Positions 28,631-55,051 of a DNA stretch of 64,000 nucleotides are shown here, one piece after another. Below the pieces are notes generated by a model, which saw nothing but the letters and a program-made list of their open reading frames with translations, was not told the origin of the DNA and ran no database searches. A program made the position numbers and the translations under genes. The stretch lies in the NCBI GenBank assembly GCA_029933125.1, contig JAOZOU010000004.1, positions 264,879-328,878 on the forward strand, read 5' to 3'. This DNA comes from a bacterium. GTDB taxonomy: Bacteria; Arandabacterota; Arandabacteria; Arandabacterales; Arandabacteraceae. The first letter of the stretch is position 1, and each line of letters starts with the position of its first letter.

Positions 28631-28679
28631 GTAGCTCCGATAAAGCATCAGCTCTCCTATGAAGCGACGGAGGGTCGTC

Positions 28680-29225
28680 ATGATACCTAAGAAGATGTTC
28701 TTGACCAAGGGGGTTGGTCGCCACAGGGATAGGCTGACGAGTTTTGAGCAGGCACTCCGAAATGCTGGCATCGCCCATCTCAATCTCGTAAGGGTTTCGA
28801 GCATTTTCCCCCCTAGATGCAAGCTCATCTCACGCGAGCAAGGACTCAAACAGCTGGCACCTGGGCAAATCACCTATGCCGTTCTGAGTGAGAATGCTAC
28901 TCAAGAGCCACATCGTCTCATGGCAGCCTCTGTTGGCGTGGCCATCCCCAAGGACCCTGAGCAGTACGGCTACCTCTCTGAGTATCACAGTTTTGGTGAG
29001 ACAGAGCAAAAAGCTGGTGACTACGCAGAAGATCTCGCTGCCTCAATGCTGGCAACCATCCTCGGTGTGGATTTCGATCCAGATGCCAGCTATGATACTA
29101 AGCGTGAGATTTGGAAGATCTCTGGGAAAATAGTAAGAACAACAAATGTTACCCAGTCAGCGATCGGCGACAAGCGGGGACTCTGGACAACTGTGCTCGC
29201 CGGTGCTATTTTCATCTGCACTTAG
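28680..29225 (+). CDS. pdaD: Pyruvoyl-dependent arginine decarboxylase
   Basis: Converts arginine to agmatine, the first step of polyamine synthesis by the agmatine route. The 181-residue proenzyme self-cleaves at the Ser-Ser bond in NLVRVSSIFPP (residues 40-41), creating the pyruvoyl group. Other family blocks are MIPKKMFLTKGVGRHRDRLT, SVGVAIPKDPEQYGYLSEY and GLWTTVLAGAIF. I start at ATG 28680 because GGAGGG (28669-28674) is 5 nt upstream and the product then begins like other bacterial PdaD proteins; ATG 28659 would add seven residues. It is divergent from hsp20. Confidence 0.92.
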   Translation: MIPKKMFLTKGVGRHRDRLTSFEQALRNAGIAHLNLVRVSSIFPPRCKLISREQGLKQLAPGQITYAVLSENATQEPHRLMAASVGVAIPKDPEQYGYLSEYHSFGETEQKAGDYAEDLAASMLATILGVDFDPDASYDTKREIWKISGKIVRTTNVTQSAIGDKRGLWTTVLAGAIFICT

Positions 29226-47130: not shown

Positions 47131-47248
47131 GCCCTTCTTTCGACGGACTTGTTTTTCTCACTCGGCTAACGTATGCTATTATCACTCTGGACAGATTATC
47201 ATACACCTGAAGAAACGGGATCTTGGCAGGTAAGGTGAGATGGTTGAA

Positions 47249-48265
47249 ATGAGAAGGCTGGGAAGAACAAGCCTTGAGGTTTCCCTAATCGGATTTGGCG
47301 GGATACCCATCATGCGTGTCTCCCGTGATGTGGCAACTCAAGCGATAATCCGAGCCCTCGAGCTCGGGATTAATTTCATTGACACAGCTCGCGGGTATGG
47401 CGACAGCGAGGCGAAAATAGGAGCTGCTCTCAAGCGCGCCAAAGCCAAGCCAATCATTGCTTCGAAATCTCCCAAGCGCGATCGCAGTGGGATGCTTTCC
47501 GATTTTGCTCAAAGCCAGCGTGAGCTTGGCATGGATTACATAGATATCTATCAGATCCATTGTGTGAATAAGTTCGATGAATATGAGAAAGCCATGGGTA
47601 AGGACGGAGCTTACGGGGCTCTTGAGAGGCTGCGTGGTGAGGGGCGTATAGGATTCATCGGCATGACAAGCCATAATCTCGAGATCATTAGGGAAGCGAT
47701 ATTGTCTGAGAAATTTGACACGATCCAAATCCTTTTCAATTTTCTCGAACCCGAAGCCGCTGATGAAGTTATTCCTTTGGCTCTTAAGCATGACCTAGGC
47801 ATTATAGCTATGAAACCTTTTGCTGGGGGATGCATTGAGGATTACGCATTGGCGTTGAAATTTGTTATCTCACATCCCTCTGTGGTGGCCATACCTGGTA
47901 TGGCTGATGAAGGTGAAGTAAGACTTAACGTCGAGGTCGCTAGCAAGCCAGTGGTCCTATCCAGTGATGACACAAGAAGAATGGATGAGATAAAGACGAG
48001 TGTTGGGAAGCAATATTGTCGGAGATGTGATTATTGTCAGCCTTGTCCCGAGGGCATTCCAATTTCCTTTGCTCTTCACATACAAAGCATAAGAAAGCGC
48101 ATAGGCGATGAGATGATGCGATCGGAAACCTATGCGGATCTCTTGTCAAAGGTTGAGGCATGTGAGCAGTGTGGTAAGTGTGAGGAGAGATGCCCCTTTG
48201 AGTTACCTGTGATGGATCTGGTGGCTAAAGCCCGTGACATCCTTTCTCAAGTTTTAGGGCAATGA
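47249..48265 (+). CDS. Aldo/keto reductase with C-terminal Fe-S domain
   Basis: The N-terminal TIM barrel shows MRRLGRTSLEVSLIGFGG, DTARGYGDSEAKIG with the catalytic Asp/Tyr, ASKSPKRD (Lys) and IYQIHCVNKF (His). The C-terminal ~85 residues carry ferredoxin-like cysteines CRRCDYCQPCPEGIPIS and CEQCGKCEERCPFELPV, expected to hold one or two [4Fe-4S] clusters. This is the COG1453-type oxidoreductase group; the substrate is unknown. I start at ATG 47249, about 10 nt from AAGGTGA; ATG 47240 is too near the SD. It starts a unit with the PP-loop and nucleotidyltransferase genes (7-bp gap, then 4-bp overlap). Confidence 0.85.
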   Translation: MRRLGRTSLEVSLIGFGGIPIMRVSRDVATQAIIRALELGINFIDTARGYGDSEAKIGAALKRAKAKPIIASKSPKRDRSGMLSDFAQSQRELGMDYIDIYQIHCVNKFDEYEKAMGKDGAYGALERLRGEGRIGFIGMTSHNLEIIREAILSEKFDTIQILFNFLEPEAADEVIPLALKHDLGIIAMKPFAGGCIEDYALALKFVISHPSVVAIPGMADEGEVRLNVEVASKPVVLSSDDTRRMDEIKTSVGKQYCRRCDYCQPCPEGIPISFALHIQSIRKRIGDEMMRSETYADLLSKVEACEQCGKCEERCPFELPVMDLVAKARDILSQVLGQ

Positions 48266-48272
48266 GGGCAAG

Positions 48273-49271
48273 ATGGCGAAACGGAGGGTCAAAGCCGTTT
48301 GTTTGCTATCAGGCGGAGTTGACAGTTCCCTGGCAGCATTATTGTTGAAAGAGCAAGGAATCCAAGTCATAGGACTGAATTTCGTGCTGCCCTTTGAGGA
48401 GATATTCAAACTGCATGCTGAGACAGCAGCTATGAGAATTGCAACTCAGATTGGCATTCACCTTAAGATTTTGACGATGGATGAAGACTATGTCGAAATT
48501 CTTCGCAATCCTCCCCATGGTTATGGAAGTCAGGTTAATCCCTGCATCGATTGCCACATCTACATGTTTCGCAAGGCCCGAGGAGTGATGGAAGAGGAGG
48601 GTGCAGATTTTGTTGCCACAGGTGAAGTTCTGGGGCAAAGACCCATGTCCCAACGCCGCGATGCTCTACGGGTGATTGAGAAGGAAAGTGGGCTGGATGG
48701 CTATCTCCTGAGACCCCTTTCAGCCCTTCTTCTTGAGCCAACGGTACCTGAGAAGGCAGGACTTGTTGACCGTGAAAGACTCCTTGGCTTTCGTGGAAGG
48801 TCACGTAAGGAGATTCTCAACGTAGCGCGTAGTAAGGGACTCACGCACTTCACGAGTCCTGCTGGAGGGTGTCTCTTTACGGATCCAGGTTTTGCCAAGC
48901 GCGTCAGGGATTTGATCGAGCACAACATGCTTTCGCTTAGGGAGCTTAGACGCCTTGCTCTCGGGAGACACATGCGACTCGATGGTGCCAAACTCATAGT
49001 TGGACGCAATGGGAGCGAAAATGCTTTGCTTGTCAAGCTAAGCTATCCCGGAGACATCGTGCTTCGATCACTTAGCATTCCTGGGCCTACTGCTATCCTC
49101 ACGGGCAAGGGTGCTGAGGCGAATGTCGAGATGGCTGCAGCCATTGTGGCTCGCTATAGTGATGCTCAACCTGATCAGATGGTTAAGGTTGAAATAAGGA
49201 AGGATGAGGCGAGATACGAGATTACCAGGCCACCTCTTGAGGAGTCACGAGTAGCAGAGTTGTTGATATGA
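48273..49271 (+). CDS. PP-loop ATPase of tRNA-thiolation type (MnmA/ThiI-like) with NFACT-R-like domain
   Basis: 332 residues. The N-terminal adenylating domain has the PP-loop motif LLSGGVDSSLAALLLKEQG (residues 11-29) and the family CxxC in NPCIDCHIYMFRKA. ADFVATGEVLGQRPMSQRR resembles the MnmA/ThiI active-site loop. The C-terminal ~110 residues (LGRHMRLDGAKLIVGRNGSE) resemble the NFACT-R RNA-binding domain found in a group of thiouridylase-like proteins. A tRNA 2- or 4-thiouridine or related sulfur transfer is likely; the exact position modified cannot be read. It overlaps the CCA-adding-type gene by 4 bp, supporting a tRNA role. Confidence 0.82.
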   Translation: MAKRRVKAVCLLSGGVDSSLAALLLKEQGIQVIGLNFVLPFEEIFKLHAETAAMRIATQIGIHLKILTMDEDYVEILRNPPHGYGSQVNPCIDCHIYMFRKARGVMEEEGADFVATGEVLGQRPMSQRRDALRVIEKESGLDGYLLRPLSALLLEPTVPEKAGLVDRERLLGFRGRSRKEILNVARSKGLTHFTSPAGGCLFTDPGFAKRVRDLIEHNMLSLRELRRLALGRHMRLDGAKLIVGRNGSENALLVKLSYPGDIVLRSLSIPGPTAILTGKGAEANVEMAAAIVARYSDAQPDQMVKVEIRKDEARYEITRPPLEESRVAELLI

Positions 49272-50641
49272 AACCTGATGCGCGCTCAAATGTCCCTCTG
49301 TCTAGCATCAAAGAGTCCCATCGGAGTCTCTTCCTGGCAATAGGTCATCATCTTGGTTGGCAACGAGGGAAGGCTTATCTGGTTGGGGGTTACATAAGGG
49401 ATCTCTTGCTGGGAATCTCTCCATCTGATATTGACATCGTGGTATCACAGACTGAGCCTCGAGTCCTTGCTCAGTGGATTCACAAACAATTTGGCTTCTC
49501 ACATCCAGTTCGCTTCAAGCGTTTTCGTACATTTCATATTGCAAGAGAAGATCTTGAACTCGAGATAGCTCCTATGGCCGGCAGGCTCGCGGACGATGCC
49601 AGGAGAAGGGACTTTACGATTAACTGCCTCTATGTGGATCTTGCATCGCTAACAGGGTCCTCATTCAAGGTCATAGATCCAACCGGCTTGGGTCTCTTTG
49701 ATGTCAGTCACCGGGTGCTAAGAACGCCAGCACAGCCTTTGATCACATTCTACCTCGACCCCTTAAGGCTTCTCAGAGGCATTCGCTTCAAAACCACTTT
49801 GGGGATGAAAACCGAGCGAGGTCTTGAGAACCAAATAGCACGGTTGGCTTACCTTGTCACGAAGCCAGCTCCTGAGCGGATCAGAACCGAGCTGGAGAAA
49901 ATTCTGCTTTCAAATCGAGTAAGCCAAGCCTTTGGTCTAATGCACCGTACTGGTCTTCTCAAAATCATATTGCCTGAGATTGATGCCATGGCCGGTTACT
50001 CGCAGCACACACCTTTTCACTCATACGATCTCCTGGAGCACACGCTGAGGACAGTTAGATACACCCCTCCAGTAATAGCCCTTCGTCTGAGCGCGCTTTT
50101 CCATGATGTTGGTAAACCGAGCACCTGCAGGAGATTGCCTGACAGAAATATCTACTACGGTCATGCTAGAGTCTCAGCTGAGTTAGCCAGCAACAGGCTT
50201 GCGAGACTGCGTTTTCCAAAGCGCACAATTGCCAAGGTGGCCTTCCTGATATCCAATCACATGGTCAATTACTCATCCTCCTGGACTGATCGTGCCGTAA
50301 GGAGATTCATGCGAAAAATGGGTGACAATCTCAGTGACATGCTTGTGCTTCTCGAGGCTGACCGAAGGGCTCAGGTTCCTGACAGGAGTGTGACTGCAAA
50401 CATCGCTGAACTGCGGAGGCGCATTGAAAAGTTGCGACACCAAGTCCCCGAGATGAAGAAATTGCCAGTTGACGGTCACGTGATAATGGAGGTTCTTGGC
50501 ATCGACCAGGGCCCACTTGTAGGAGAGGCTAAGCAATTTCTGGAGGAGGTCATTGAGAGACAAGGCCGACCTTTGGGCAGAGATGAATCCATCAGGCTTC
50601 TCATGACGTGGATGAGCAGGAGGGCAAAACAATCATATTGA
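49268..50641 (+). CDS. CCA-adding/poly(A) polymerase-family tRNA nucleotidyltransferase with HD domain
   Basis: 457 residues. Class II nucleotidyltransferase head: AYLVGGYIRDLLLGISPSDI with the metal-binding DIDIVV, then RRRDFTINCLYVDL and DPLRLLRGIRFKT. An HD domain follows (ALRLSALFHDVGKPSTCRRL and YYGHARVSAELASNRL). The basic C-terminus is in the PcnB/Cca style. It could add CCA, only part of CCA, or poly(A). The one complete tRNA in the window encodes its own CCA, so a repair role is plausible. Translationally coupled to the PP-loop gene. Confidence 0.88.
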   Translation: MKPDARSNVPLSSIKESHRSLFLAIGHHLGWQRGKAYLVGGYIRDLLLGISPSDIDIVVSQTEPRVLAQWIHKQFGFSHPVRFKRFRTFHIAREDLELEIAPMAGRLADDARRRDFTINCLYVDLASLTGSSFKVIDPTGLGLFDVSHRVLRTPAQPLITFYLDPLRLLRGIRFKTTLGMKTERGLENQIARLAYLVTKPAPERIRTELEKILLSNRVSQAFGLMHRTGLLKIILPEIDAMAGYSQHTPFHSYDLLEHTLRTVRYTPPVIALRLSALFHDVGKPSTCRRLPDRNIYYGHARVSAELASNRLARLRFPKRTIAKVAFLISNHMVNYSSSWTDRAVRRFMRKMGDNLSDMLVLLEADRRAQVPDRSVTANIAELRRRIEKLRHQVPEMKKLPVDGHVIMEVLGIDQGPLVGEAKQFLEEVIERQGRPLGRDESIRLLMTWMSRRAKQSY

Positions 50642-50667: not shown

Positions 50668-50699
50668 CTATGAGGAAAATTGACGAGGGAGGGCAAACT

Positions 50700-51470
50700 G
50701 TGAGAAGAGTCAAAATGTTGCTCATTCTTGTCGGCATTGGCGCCATTGGCTGGGGCTGTATCGAGGAACTCAGCACAGGCAAGGACCTCAAGCCCAATGT
50801 TTGGTTTACGGCAGGGCCTGAGGATGGAGAGGTCATCTTTCAGAACTCGGTTGAGTTTCAGTGGATGGCAACTGACTTCGATGACGATCTGGGAATGGGC
50901 AAGATGTTTGTCAAACTTGAACCCGACTCTGTGGCATGGTTCGATGCTTGGTCCGGGTCACTGAAAGTATTCACCCATCCCGAAGGGTGGCAACGTGTTT
51001 ATGAAAGACGCTATGAAATCCTCGATCTTACTGATACAAGTTATGTTTTCTCCGTCAAGGTTATCGATGGACGAGGAGCTGACAGTACGGCGACAACGCA
51101 TTTTGTCGTTCGTTTTGACAATCAGCCGCCAATCATAGATTCAGTCACCTGTCCACCAGCGAAGATTTCCCCTCAGCAATATGATCTTACGATCACCATT
51201 TATGCCCATGACGTTGCTAGAAGCCCAAGGTCAGCGACTCCAGATGATTCACTCGAATTCTATTATAAGCTTGTTGGCCCTCGAGGCTCAGGGTTTAAGA
51301 CGGTTGAATCTGACCCCGAATGGTCACCCAATAATAGAACCTTCACTTATACGATCGATGGCCAGGCTTACAAAGATAAGGGGCAATTCACCTTCTGGTA
51401 CAAGGTCAGGGATCGTGCTATGAATACAACGCCACAGCTGAGTTGTAAGTTCGAATTTGTCCAGCATTAA
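50700..51470 (+). CDS. Putative lipoprotein with Ig-like repeats, unknown function
   Basis: About 256 residues from GTG 50700, which has GAGGGAGGG just upstream. The N-terminus MRRVKMLLILVGIGAIGWGC is a lipoprotein-type signal with Cys20 as the likely lipidated residue (lipobox GWGC, slightly atypical). Two beta-rich segments follow (VWFTAGPEDGEVIFQNSVEF and the NQPPIIDSVTCPPAKISPQQ region), like Ig/fibronectin-type surface domains. No enzymatic motif is seen. It is probably outer-membrane anchored. Thioredoxin follows after 16 bp. Confidence 0.7.
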   Translation: MRRVKMLLILVGIGAIGWGCIEELSTGKDLKPNVWFTAGPEDGEVIFQNSVEFQWMATDFDDDLGMGKMFVKLEPDSVAWFDAWSGSLKVFTHPEGWQRVYERRYEILDLTDTSYVFSVKVIDGRGADSTATTHFVVRFDNQPPIIDSVTCPPAKISPQQYDLTITIYAHDVARSPRSATPDDSLEFYYKLVGPRGSGFKTVESDPEWSPNNRTFTYTIDGQAYKDKGQFTFWYKVRDRAMNTTPQLSCKFEFVQH

Positions 51471-51486: not shown

Positions 51487-51816
51487 ATGGAGGGAAAGGC
51501 AATTCACATCTGTGATGCTGATTTTGAATCCAAGGTTCTTAAGAGTGATAAGCCGTCGATAGTGGACTTCTGGGCTCCATGGTGCGCTCCTTGCAGGATC
51601 ATTGCACCTGTTCTCGAGGAGATAGCCGAGGCATATAAAGATAAGATTAGCGTTTACAAGGTCAATGTTGACGAGTGTCCAATGACGGCTACATCTTTTG
51701 AGATAAGATCAATCCCCACTTTGATAATCTTCAAAGATGGCAAGCCGGTTACGAGGCTTGTCGGTGTTCGGCCAAAGGCGGAGATTGAAAAGCATATTGA
51801 AGCGGCTGTCACCTGA
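51487..51816 (+). CDS. Thioredoxin
   Basis: 109-residue classical thioredoxin with active site VDFWAPWCAPCRIIAPVLEE (WCAPC rather than WCGPC). The cis-Pro motif is visible in IRSIPTLIIFKDGKPV. ATG 51487 has AAGAGGAG 6 nt upstream; the longer in-frame start at 51457 lies inside the lipoprotein gene. It precedes the KARI-like gene by 17 bp, so a redox link to that operon is possible. Confidence 0.93.
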   Translation: MEGKAIHICDADFESKVLKSDKPSIVDFWAPWCAPCRIIAPVLEEIAEAYKDKISVYKVNVDECPMTATSFEIRSIPTLIIFKDGKPVTRLVGVRPKAEIEKHIEAAVT

Positions 51817-51833
51817 GGGAGAGTTCCTTCCAA

Positions 51834-52784
51834 TTGCCTCAAGAACGCTTTGGCAGTCTGAGTGGGAAGAGGATTGGTATTCTTGGATATGGCTCCCAGG
51901 GTAGAGCCCAGGCACTTAACCTGCGTGACAGCGGTTTTTCACCCCTGATTGGCTCACGTCCCGGAAAATCGTGCAACATTGCATCACGCGACGGTTTTCA
52001 TGTGACAAGCCTCGAGGACACGGTTTCCCAGTCAGATATCGTCATGGTGCTTCTGCCTGATGATGTACATGGGGAGGTATGCAAGGATGTGGTTTTCCCA
52101 AACCTTAAGGTGGATGCGCGCATTGGCTTCGCGGCAGGTTTTAGTGTGCATTTTGGCATGGTAAAGCCTCCGGAACCCAGGCATGTTTTTCTCGTTGCTC
52201 CCAAAGGTCCTGGTGAGATCCTTAGGAAAAGATACCTTGAGGGTTCAGGTATTCCAGCTCTTATTGCTGCCCTCGAGAATGATGAAGCCTCAATGGAGAT
52301 AGCTCGGGACTATGCATGCGCAATTGGGTGCGACAGAGCAGCCATAATTGAGACGAGTTTTGAGGAAGAGGCAACTGCTGATCTTTTCGGCGAGCAGTGT
52401 GTCCTTGTGGGCGGAATGATCGAGCTCATGAAAGCAGCATTCAAGGTGCTGACTGAGAGGGGCTATCCTCCTGAGATTGCATATATCGAATGTATTGCGG
52501 AGGTTGAATACATGGCTTCACTCATCAATAGGCTTGGAATGGAGGATCTGGCTAAGCATATTTCCTCAACCGCGTACTTTGGAGGGACAACAAGGGGAAA
52601 GGTGCTCATCAACGAAGGTGTGGTTACGAAGATGAGAAAGATTCTTGAGGAAATAGAATCGGGAACTTTTTTTGAGGAGTTCGCTGCCTATCTCAGGACT
52701 GGTAAAAAGCTGGATGTCGATAACGAGGAGCTCGGGGAGATAGAGCGTGCTAAAAAGCGTCTTTTCAAGAGGCAGCGGTCATGA
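51834..52784 (+). CDS. Ketol-acid reductoisomerase-like protein, divergent
   Basis: 316 residues aligning by eye along class I ketol-acid reductoisomerase (IlvC). The Rossmann start is KRIGILGYGSQGRAQALNL, the NADPH loop GSRPGKS, the core FLVAPKGPGEILRKRYLEGS. Metal-ligand segments TADLFGEQCVLVGGMIELM and AYIECIAEVEYMASL keep their Asp/Glu residues. However, the usual F-A-H-G-F reads FAAGF, so the conserved His is Ala101 (codon GCA at 52134). The lysine usual in the segment before DLFGEQ is Glu. The N-terminus is short; TTG 51834 is uncertain. No ilvB, ilvN, ilvD or leu gene is near. It overlaps the molybdenum hydroxylase gene by 4 bp. It may have a different substrate or have lost the isomerase step. 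Confidence 0.75.
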   Translation: MPQERFGSLSGKRIGILGYGSQGRAQALNLRDSGFSPLIGSRPGKSCNIASRDGFHVTSLEDTVSQSDIVMVLLPDDVHGEVCKDVVFPNLKVDARIGFAAGFSVHFGMVKPPEPRHVFLVAPKGPGEILRKRYLEGSGIPALIAALENDEASMEIARDYACAIGCDRAAIIETSFEEEATADLFGEQCVLVGGMIELMKAAFKVLTERGYPPEIAYIECIAEVEYMASLINRLGMEDLAKHISSTAYFGGTTRGKVLINEGVVTKMRKILEEIESGTFFEEFAAYLRTGKKLDVDNEELGEIERAKKRLFKRQRS

Positions 52785-55051
52785 CTGGTGAGGACAAAAG
52801 ATTTGTAGGTCGCACAGTTCCGAAGGTGGATGGAGCGCTGAAGGCTAGTGGCAAGCTGCTCTTTGTCGATGATATTTCCTTTCCCGGAATGGTGCATGCA
52901 GCCATGGTAATTGCCGGTCGGCCTCATGCACGCATTCTGAGCATCGATGTTTCGAGAGCAAAAGCAGCTAGCGGTGTCGTCGGGGTTGTTACTGCTGATG
53001 ATGTCCCTGGTGAGAATCAAGTGGGATTGATCAAGAAAGATCAACCTCTTTTTGTTTCTGAAACTGTGAGATTTGAAGGTGACTGTCTTGCCCTGGTAGG
53101 TGCTGATAGCCCAGCAGATGCTAGGCGTGCCGCTGAGCTTGTAAAAGTCACATATGAGAATCTGCCACACGTAGCCTCTCTCGAACAGGCGAAGGAACCC
53201 TACGCTGTTCATGTGCACGATGGGGGAAATGTTGCGGTTGAAAGGAGTATTGTAAAAGGAGACATTGAGAGAGGTAGAGCAGAAAGTGAGCATGTTGTTG
53301 AGATGCAGTTTGAAACCCCGATACAGGAGCATGCCTATCTGGAGACCATTGGGGCAATCGCAGTCCCTATCGGTGGAAAAATGGAAATATGGATTTCGGC
53401 ACAGTGCCCCTTCTACGTGCGAGAAGCTGTTGCTAGATGTCTCGGGGTAAAGCTTGCTGATGTGAGAGTCATTCAATTGCCGATAGGCGGTGGTTTCGGT
53501 GGCAAAGAGGATGTCCCATCCGAGCTGGCAGCGAGAGTCGCGGTTCTGGCCAGACGAATAGGACGACCAGCAAAACTCGTACTACGACGCGAGGAGGACA
53601 TTGTATGCACTTCCAAGCGTCATCCGATAATCCTCTGGTATCGCATAGGATGTGATGGCAGTGGCAAGCTTAAGTTTGCAGACATTCGCATTGAAGCTGA
53701 TGTTGGAGCCTATGCAACCCTTTCGCCTATTGTCCTTTTCAGATCAACCGTTCATGCAGCAGGTCCGTATGAGATTCCCAATGTTAGAATCCTCACCAAA
53801 GGCTACTACACCAACACAACACCTAAGGGTGCGATGCGTGGCTTCGGGACACCTCAGGTTGTCTTTGCCTGTGAAGCCATGATAGATGAACTGGCTGGTA
53901 AGGTTGGAATCGATCCACTTGAATTCAGAGCTTTGAACGCACTCGCCAAGGGCAAGCGAACTGCTACAAATCAGGTGCTCACCGAAAGCGTGGGCTTGCC
54001 CCAGACGCTTGAGATAGCAAAAAGATATGTGGGCAAGCGATGGGTCGAGGTGCAATCAAATCGCATCCGCAGGGCAAAAGGTGTGGCGACAATGTTCTAT
54101 GGTGTAAGCCTGGGTGCTGCGGGTCGTCATCTTGACAGAGGTAGTGCAAAGGTTGAGATACTCAAGGATAGCTCAGTCAATGTTTGGGTTGGCTGCACAG
54201 ACATGGGGCAGGGAGCCCAAACTATCCTTTCGCAGATAACTGCTGAGTGCCTCGACATTGACATCGACCAGGTCAAAGTCAATCATGTGGATACTGACAT
54301 TGTCGCTGACTCAGGTCCGACGGTGGCATCCCGCACAACAGTTGTAAGCGGAAATGCTATCCTCAATGCCTGCCAGAAGCTCAAAGAGATTCTTTATAGT
54401 GTTGCCGGGGAGATGGCAGGTTCAAAGATAGTCGGGGCAGCGGATTCGAAGCTTATCACCGCAGATGGCAAAGAAATAGATTTTGGCGATGTCATTGCTG
54501 AGTGCTTCTCGAGACGAATAGATCTGACAGCAACAGGCTGGTATGCTATACCCGATTGCCGACTTGACGATTCTGGTCAGGGTGATGCCTACTATGTTTA
54601 TTCCTATGCCACTCATATCGCAGATGTTGAGGTGGACACGGATACGGGTGAAACCAGGGTAAGGGATTTCGTGGCAATCCACGATAGTGGGCGCATCATA
54701 AACCCCGAGTTAGCCAGAGGACAGATTGAGGGTGGTGTTGCACAGGGTATAGGGCTTGCGATTTACGAGACTTTTGTCCAGAAGGATGGCCATGTTACAA
54801 CGCGAGATCTTTCGACGTATCTTTTGCCAACTTCTCTTGATGTATGCGACACCATAAAGGTTGAGTTTGTTGAAGCTCTTTCACAGGATGGTCCCTTCGG
54901 CGCAAAGGGCTTGGGAGAGCCCGCGATAATACCGGTGGCAGCAGCCATAGCCAATGCTGTCTCAAGAGCCTTAGGCAGGAGAGTCAGGCGTCTGCCAATC
55001 TCAAGAGAGTGGGTCACCATGTCCCCACCAATTCCCCCTCGCCACGCCTAA
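52781..55051 (+). CDS. Xanthine dehydrogenase-family molybdopterin-binding subunit
   Basis: 756 residues of the molybdenum hydroxylase large-subunit family (XdhA/CoxL type). N-terminal a/b hammerhead: VGRTVPKVDGALKASGKLLF. The cofactor-binding domain shows PIGGGFGGKEDVPSELAARV, KGAMRGFGTPQVVFACEAMI, TDMGQGAQTILSQITAECL and FGAKGLGEPAIIPVAAAIAN. The last block carries the catalytic-type Glu. The CoxL-specific Cys loop (AYRCSFR) is absent, so it is not a carbon monoxide dehydrogenase. The 2Fe-2S and FAD partner subunits normally encoded alongside are absent from the window. ATG 52781 overlaps the KARI-like stop. The substrate is unknown; MoeA is encoded 14 kb upstream. Confidence 0.9.
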   Translation: MTGEDKRFVGRTVPKVDGALKASGKLLFVDDISFPGMVHAAMVIAGRPHARILSIDVSRAKAASGVVGVVTADDVPGENQVGLIKKDQPLFVSETVRFEGDCLALVGADSPADARRAAELVKVTYENLPHVASLEQAKEPYAVHVHDGGNVAVERSIVKGDIERGRAESEHVVEMQFETPIQEHAYLETIGAIAVPIGGKMEIWISAQCPFYVREAVARCLGVKLADVRVIQLPIGGGFGGKEDVPSELAARVAVLARRIGRPAKLVLRREEDIVCTSKRHPIILWYRIGCDGSGKLKFADIRIEADVGAYATLSPIVLFRSTVHAAGPYEIPNVRILTKGYYTNTTPKGAMRGFGTPQVVFACEAMIDELAGKVGIDPLEFRALNALAKGKRTATNQVLTESVGLPQTLEIAKRYVGKRWVEVQSNRIRRAKGVATMFYGVSLGAAGRHLDRGSAKVEILKDSSVNVWVGCTDMGQGAQTILSQITAECLDIDIDQVKVNHVDTDIVADSGPTVASRTTVVSGNAILNACQKLKEILYSVAGEMAGSKIVGAADSKLITADGKEIDFGDVIAECFSRRIDLTATGWYAIPDCRLDDSGQGDAYYVYSYATHIADVEVDTDTGETRVRDFVAIHDSGRIINPELARGQIEGGVAQGIGLAIYETFVQKDGHVTTRDLSTYLLPTSLDVCDTIKVEFVEALSQDGPFGAKGLGEPAIIPVAAAIANAVSRALGRRVRRLPISREWVTMSPPIPPRHA

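Follow-up and report, generated by a model that had tools for sequence, protein, structure and literature searches.

KARI is a textbook enzyme, and automatic annotation labels ilvC by score alone. Its chemistry consists of two parts: an alkyl migration and, on two Mg2+ ions, the reduction of a 2-oxo acid with NADPH. The locus described here raises the question of what a KARI homologue does when it scores as ilvC, carries Ala in place of the active-site His and is encoded between a thioredoxin and the large subunit of a molybdenum hydroxylase. The window, meaning the whole stretch of 64 000 nucleotides that was analyzed (G000:C152:264879-328878), belongs to G000, a 3.23 Mb metagenome-assembled genome (MAG) with a completeness of 96.7%. 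The features that bear on the question are listed below by their positions in the window, with the basis of each call.

47240-48265, + strand: aldo-keto reductase with a 4Fe-4S domain (domain match; conserved gene order)
48273-49271, + strand: HUP-domain ATP-pyrophosphatase with an NFACT-R domain, tRNA thiolase-like (domain match; conserved order)
49268-50641, + strand: CCA-adding/poly(A) polymerase-type nucleotidyltransferase (conserved gene order)
50670-51470, + strand: conserved protein with a lipoprotein-like N-terminus and no Pfam match (in the conserved gene order)
51487-51816, + strand: thioredoxin (W-C-A-P-C); ATG 51487 matches the relatives, the ORF finder start being TTG 51457
51813-51836, + strand: site of the probable true start of the KARI homologue, CTG 51813, which adds seven residues relative to TTG 51834
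51834-52784, + strand: KARI (IlvC) homologue, 316 aa counted from TTG (Pfam, TIGR00465, predicted structure)
52134-52136, + strand: codon GCA for Ala101, replacing the conserved His of A-H-G-F (E. coli His132; alignment)
52488-52520, + strand: metal-ligand helix E219-C-I-A222-E223-V-E225-Y-M-A-S229 (frame from 51834)
52781-55051, + strand: molybdenum-hydroxylase large subunit, XdhL (MoCo domains; catalytic residues kept)

Family assignment and active site

The ORF at 51834-52784 is a complete, full-length class I KARI homologue. Its membership of the family is established by domain matches to KARI_N (177.6 bits) and KARI_C (124.1 bits) and by a TIGR00465 ilvC score of 299.9 bits, well above the cut-off of 226. 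Class I KARIs are its top relatives among solved structures, and its AlphaFold model (pLDDT 93.8, pTM 0.89) superposes on the S. aureus enzyme (6aqj) with a TM score of 0.91. The real start is probably CTG 51813, because the frame upstream of TTG 51834, (CTG)-R-E-S-S-F-Q-L-P, matches the L032 N-terminus MRESSFQLP and the relatives start there; the thioredoxin stop shares CTGA with this codon.

Residues 99-103 read FAAGF where the family has FAHGF, and Ala101 aligns with E. coli His132. The active-site His of the family is thus missing, with Ala101 in five of five clade members, and the metal-ligand carboxylates and catalytic Lys are present. E. coli K155, E213, D217 and E221 correspond to K124, E179, D183 and E187, and alignment A3 shows no variation at D183, E187, E219, E223, K124 or S244. 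R42 and S46 of the NADPH loop are invariant in alignment A1; in MtKARI, the equivalent Arg and Ser hold the 2'-phosphate of NADP (PMC8615647). The metal-ligand helix retains both Glu ligands (E219, E223) but departs from other KARIs at His222, Lys225 and Asp229. The clade-wide changes in the Ala clade are therefore H101A, H222A/S, K225E and D229S, with H, K and D occupying columns 222, 225 and 229 in 98-100% of the other KARIs of a 119-sequence alignment.

A sequence-only reading of the locus had described an IlvC fold with an intact NADPH loop, catalytic Lys and acidic metal ligands around a change of A-H-G-F to A-A-G-F at Ala101, and the profile score, the superposition, the alignments and the Ala of four relatives bear this out. 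It had also noted a Lys-to-Glu change before DLFGEQ, which holds for the window copy and is not clade-wide, the relatives having R or A.

Conservation and selection

Four relatives, G001-G004 (Meg22_1214_Bin_137, CSMAG_463 'Candidatus Eisenbacteria', Meg22_46_Bin_89 and M3-30_Bin_374), are of the same genus and family, and their KARI homologues share 55-64% identity with that of the window and have Ala in all four cases. The AAG[FS] motif is thereby found in 5/5 family members that carry the homologue, and the His-less subfamily is confined so far to this one family. At the position equivalent to His132, the 119 aligned KARIs have His in 111, Ala in 5 (the window clade), Cys in 2 and Ser in 1. 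In the KARI tree the Ala clade is a single group with support of 100/100 and a long stem (1.16), and the residue label at the His position needs three changes among the sampled sequences. The tree gives no resolved link from this clade to the orphan KARI of G007, a genome of the same class.

Comparison of the window gene with its relatives gives pS values of 0.66-0.85 and pN values of 0.24-0.34. With synonymous sites near saturation and pN this low, the KARI homologue is under purifying selection. Sequencing error or gene decay as the cause of the His loss is excluded by this selection together with conservation in four other genomes. Judged from these sequence comparisons, the loss of the His extends to the whole clade and is a selected change.

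Gene order

The order aldo-keto reductase, HUP-NFACT protein, CCA nucleotidyltransferase, lipoprotein-like protein, thioredoxin, KARI homologue and XdhL recurs in G001, G003 and G004, and in G002 as far as its short contig extends, so that thioredoxin, KARI homologue and XdhL keep their order in all five genomes. The stop of the window KARI homologue overlaps the start of XdhL (ATGA, 52781), and in the relatives both the thioredoxin/KARI and the KARI/XdhL junctions overlap or abut. Such coding ends would imply translational coupling of the three genes and suggest joint expression of the KARI homologue with thioredoxin and XdhL in a redox/purine-catabolic setting. Genes for tRNA processing lie in the same run, however, so co-expression need not imply a pathway shared with XdhL. 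The upstream thioredoxin and the overlap with a xanthine dehydrogenase (XDH)-type subunit had been recognized from the window alone; that homologues with AAG[FS] adjoin the hydroxylase gene as well is now evident from the relatives.

Elsewhere in the window, positions 28659-29225 encode a pyruvoyl-dependent arginine decarboxylase (Pfam, 205 bits).

Branched-chain amino acid (BCAA) and proline pathways

G000 contains one KARI only, a further match covering profile positions 1-100 alone at 24.7 bits. The ilvD models gave zero matches in the eight genomes of the class (G000-G007), and TIGR00118 (ilvB), run on G000 only, gave zero matches there; the same ilvD and ilvB models matched 14 of 14 control genomes. 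Neither acetolactate synthase nor dihydroxyacid dehydratase is therefore found in G000. A weak TPP_enzyme_N match in G000 was rejected as an acetolactate synthase since its ORF reads like the alpha subunit of a 2-oxoacid:ferredoxin oxidoreductase. G004 and G006 have strong TPP_enzyme_N matches and no ilvD.

A joined query of E. coli ProB, ProA, LeuA, IlvE and RecA was searched against the same eight genomes. RecA was found in six of them, including G000, and IlvE also in six, with ilvE present in G000. LeuA and ProB were found in 0/8, and the ProA part gave weak matches of 25-28% only; in G000 neither proA nor proB was found, and proC was not found in any of G000-G007. These absence calls depend on MAGs and model thresholds and are not absolute, yet they are repeated across several genomes. 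On such searches the lineage looks unable to make BCAA and proline via the standard routes.

These results support the original placement of the protein outside valine and isoleucine synthesis; the accompanying idea of a 2-keto or hydroxy acid reductase in a redox pathway goes further and is a hypothesis. No second, normal ilvC exists in G000, and its sole KARI is accompanied not by an otherwise complete ilv pathway but by the apparent lack of ilvB (G000) and of ilvD and leuA (G000-G007). As the window protein passes the curated ilvC cut-off and the pathway is not found, inferring valine synthesis from the genome would be a mistake in this lineage. Orphan KARIs are likewise present in the ilvD-less genomes G007, G016, G032, G040, G073 and G076 and hint at a broader set of reassigned KARIs.

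The adjoining hydroxylase subunit

XdhL carries both MoCo-binding domains. Alignment with the R. capsulatus XDH chain 1jro_B equates its Q208, E243, R321 and E713 with Q197, E232, R310 and E730, whose roles in XDH are established, and all four are invariant across the relatives. In entry 2w55 the Glu232 column has Gln, which marks that one position in the XdhL alignment. XdhL scores below every curated equivalog cut-off (534 against 784 bits for pucD), and no FeS or FAD subunit gene adjoins it.

The G000 genome encodes three large, three FeS and three FAD subunits in total, a fourth FAD match being the second piece of one frame. Two hydroxylase loci are complete; the third, at G000:C42:30-48 kb, encodes FeS and FAD subunits and lacks the large one. 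This third cluster includes genes for SsnA, a HyuA-like dihydropyrimidinase, YgeY, carbamate kinase, YqeB and YqeC, as well as MocA-like, XdhC-like and adenine deaminase genes, and a PreTA-like pair lies beside it (G000:C42:30000-52000; L134, L200). The gene set resembles those reported for the reductive breakdown of uric acid (PMC12507026) and for selenium-dependent molybdenum hydroxylases (PMC2276186). By elimination, given that the two other loci are complete and the subunit numbers match, the window XdhL is probably the large subunit of this uric-acid/selenium-molybdenum cluster.

Proposed function and alternatives

The missing BCAA enzymes, the lost His and the fixed place between thioredoxin and XdhL point to a probable reassignment of the KARI homologue to a new reductase function. 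Its metal ligands, Lys and NADPH loop are intact, whereas the His and the helix have changed and the pathway was not found; the simplest account is a reductase for some other 2-oxo acid. It is moderately probable that the protein left BCAA synthesis and now uses NADPH and Mg2+ to reduce a 2-oxo acid or 2-oxo-3-hydroxy acid. The carboxylate and 2-oxo group of the substrate would bind the two Mg2+ ions, and hydride would pass from NADPH to the bound substrate without alkyl migration, the isomerization having been lost. The absence of His and the reshaped helix would fit the pocket to a substrate other than acetolactate. E. coli KARI mutants that lose the isomerase and keep the reductase were reportedly obtained in the mutagenesis of Tyagi et al. 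in 2005. The natural, selected His-to-Ala KARI offers a ready experiment on whether isomerization and reduction can be separated in the active site. Known KARIs act as reductases on a range of 2-oxo acids (PMC4353338). The substrate of the window protein may be ketopantoate, a different 2-oxo acid or another compound. A bolder claim is put forward tentatively, as plausible rather than probable: in one family of Eisenbacteria-like sediment bacteria without a BCAA pathway, a His-less KARI subfamily encoded in a conserved thioredoxin-KARI-XDH run would catalyze an NADPH-dependent reaction that is new to science.

Ketopantoate is a well-defined candidate substrate. The protein would here replace PanE, with imported valine converted by IlvE to 2-oxoisovalerate, by PanB to ketopantoate and by the KARI homologue to pantoate. 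G000 has ilvE and a CoaX-like gene, and in Corynebacterium glutamicum and Buchnera the ilvC product serves as ketopantoate reductase in place of PanE (PMC4306246). In the ilvD-less G040 (L042, G040:C9, 4330-8888) a divergent KARI stands at the head of a KARI-panB-coaX-coaBC-panC operon and is a probable PanE replacement, and a class I KARI directly follows panC-panB on a Ktedonobacteraceae contig (L073, 2448-5443). The G040 enzyme keeps its His, however, so this role leaves the His loss unexplained; sampling of 1.48 Mb of G000 (46%) turned up no panB, panC or panE, and no pan gene lies in any Ala-clade neighborhood. We regard this role as unlikely. It is a little less likely still that the protein remains a ketol-acid reductoisomerase for an imported or unusual 2-hydroxy-3-oxo acid, with the His dispensable in this context. 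The fully KARI fold and the intact catalytic Lys agree with it. An enzyme that has kept all its metal ligands could just as well still carry out the isomeroreductase reaction, on a different ketol acid, and the His is replaced elsewhere too, by Cys in Planctomycetota and by Ser in a second copy of one genome. Against it, G000 has no acetolactate synthase model match, the class has no dihydroxyacid dehydratase, and the joint replacement of residues 222, 225 and 229 points to an altered pocket.

The neighboring XDH subunit raises the prospect of a role in purine catabolism, with the protein reducing an intermediate of uric-acid or purine breakdown. The KARI-XdhL order conserved in five genomes points this way, as do the SsnA/HyuA/YgeY/YqeBC cluster with its FAD and FeS genes and no large subunit and the matching three-three-three subunit count. 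The reductive step is nevertheless attributable to the PreTA-like pair beside the cluster, the discovery of which led us to drop the homologue as its dearomatizing reductase; the published pathway has no step needing a 2-oxo acid reductase (PMC12507026), and the tRNA-processing genes in the run weaken the argument from co-expression. Such a role is improbable. Most improbable is a pyrroline-5-carboxylate (P5C) reductase standing in for the ProC missing from G000-G007, even though a low level of this activity is known from Streptomyces KARIs (PMC4353338). The window protein retains the metal ligands, whose role is with 2-oxo acids and not with P5C, and the candidate was rejected because proA and proB were not found either, which leaves no route from glutamate to P5C.

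Comparison with known systems

The preferred reading, a reductase acting on another 2-oxo acid, can be set against several characterized relatives. Class I KARIs (IlvC, EC 1.1.1.86) share 40-45% identity with the window protein and agree with it in fold, length, NADPH loop, catalytic Lys, metal-ligand carboxylates and Ser; the window protein differs in the Ala of its AHGF motif and in H222A/S, K225E and D229S, and its gene sits with thioredoxin and XdhL rather than within a BCAA pathway. BurG, a cyclopropanol synthase, is a KARI given new chemistry: it uses two Mg2+ ions for a reaction outside BCAA synthesis and retains 2-oxo acid reductase ability in the form of hydroxypyruvate reduction (PMC9359912). 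BurG is NAD-dependent and belongs to the malleicyprol gene cluster, whereas the window protein has NADP-type loop residues and is far nearer to ordinary class I KARI than to BurG (265 versus 138 bits). The IlvC of Corynebacterium and Buchnera likewise serves as a plain 2-oxo acid reductase but keeps its BCAA role, and Buchnera has panB and panC (PMC4306246). Relative to XDH large subunits (PucD/XdhA; R. capsulatus XdhB), XdhL retains the four catalytic residues, falls below the equivalog cut-offs and has no FeS or FAD gene beside it.

Other replacements of the active-site His were seen in the sampled KARIs. An independent lineage in Planctomycetota (L069, 8001-8861; L123, 5925-6785) has Cys for His within GFVCGAP. 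The second KARI copy of G053 (L040, G053:C17, 7989-8987) has Ser for His and is flanked by a MurT-like ligase gene on one side and, on the other, by a gene that weakly matches ADP-ribosylhydrolase; G053 additionally encodes a normal ilvC and ilvD.
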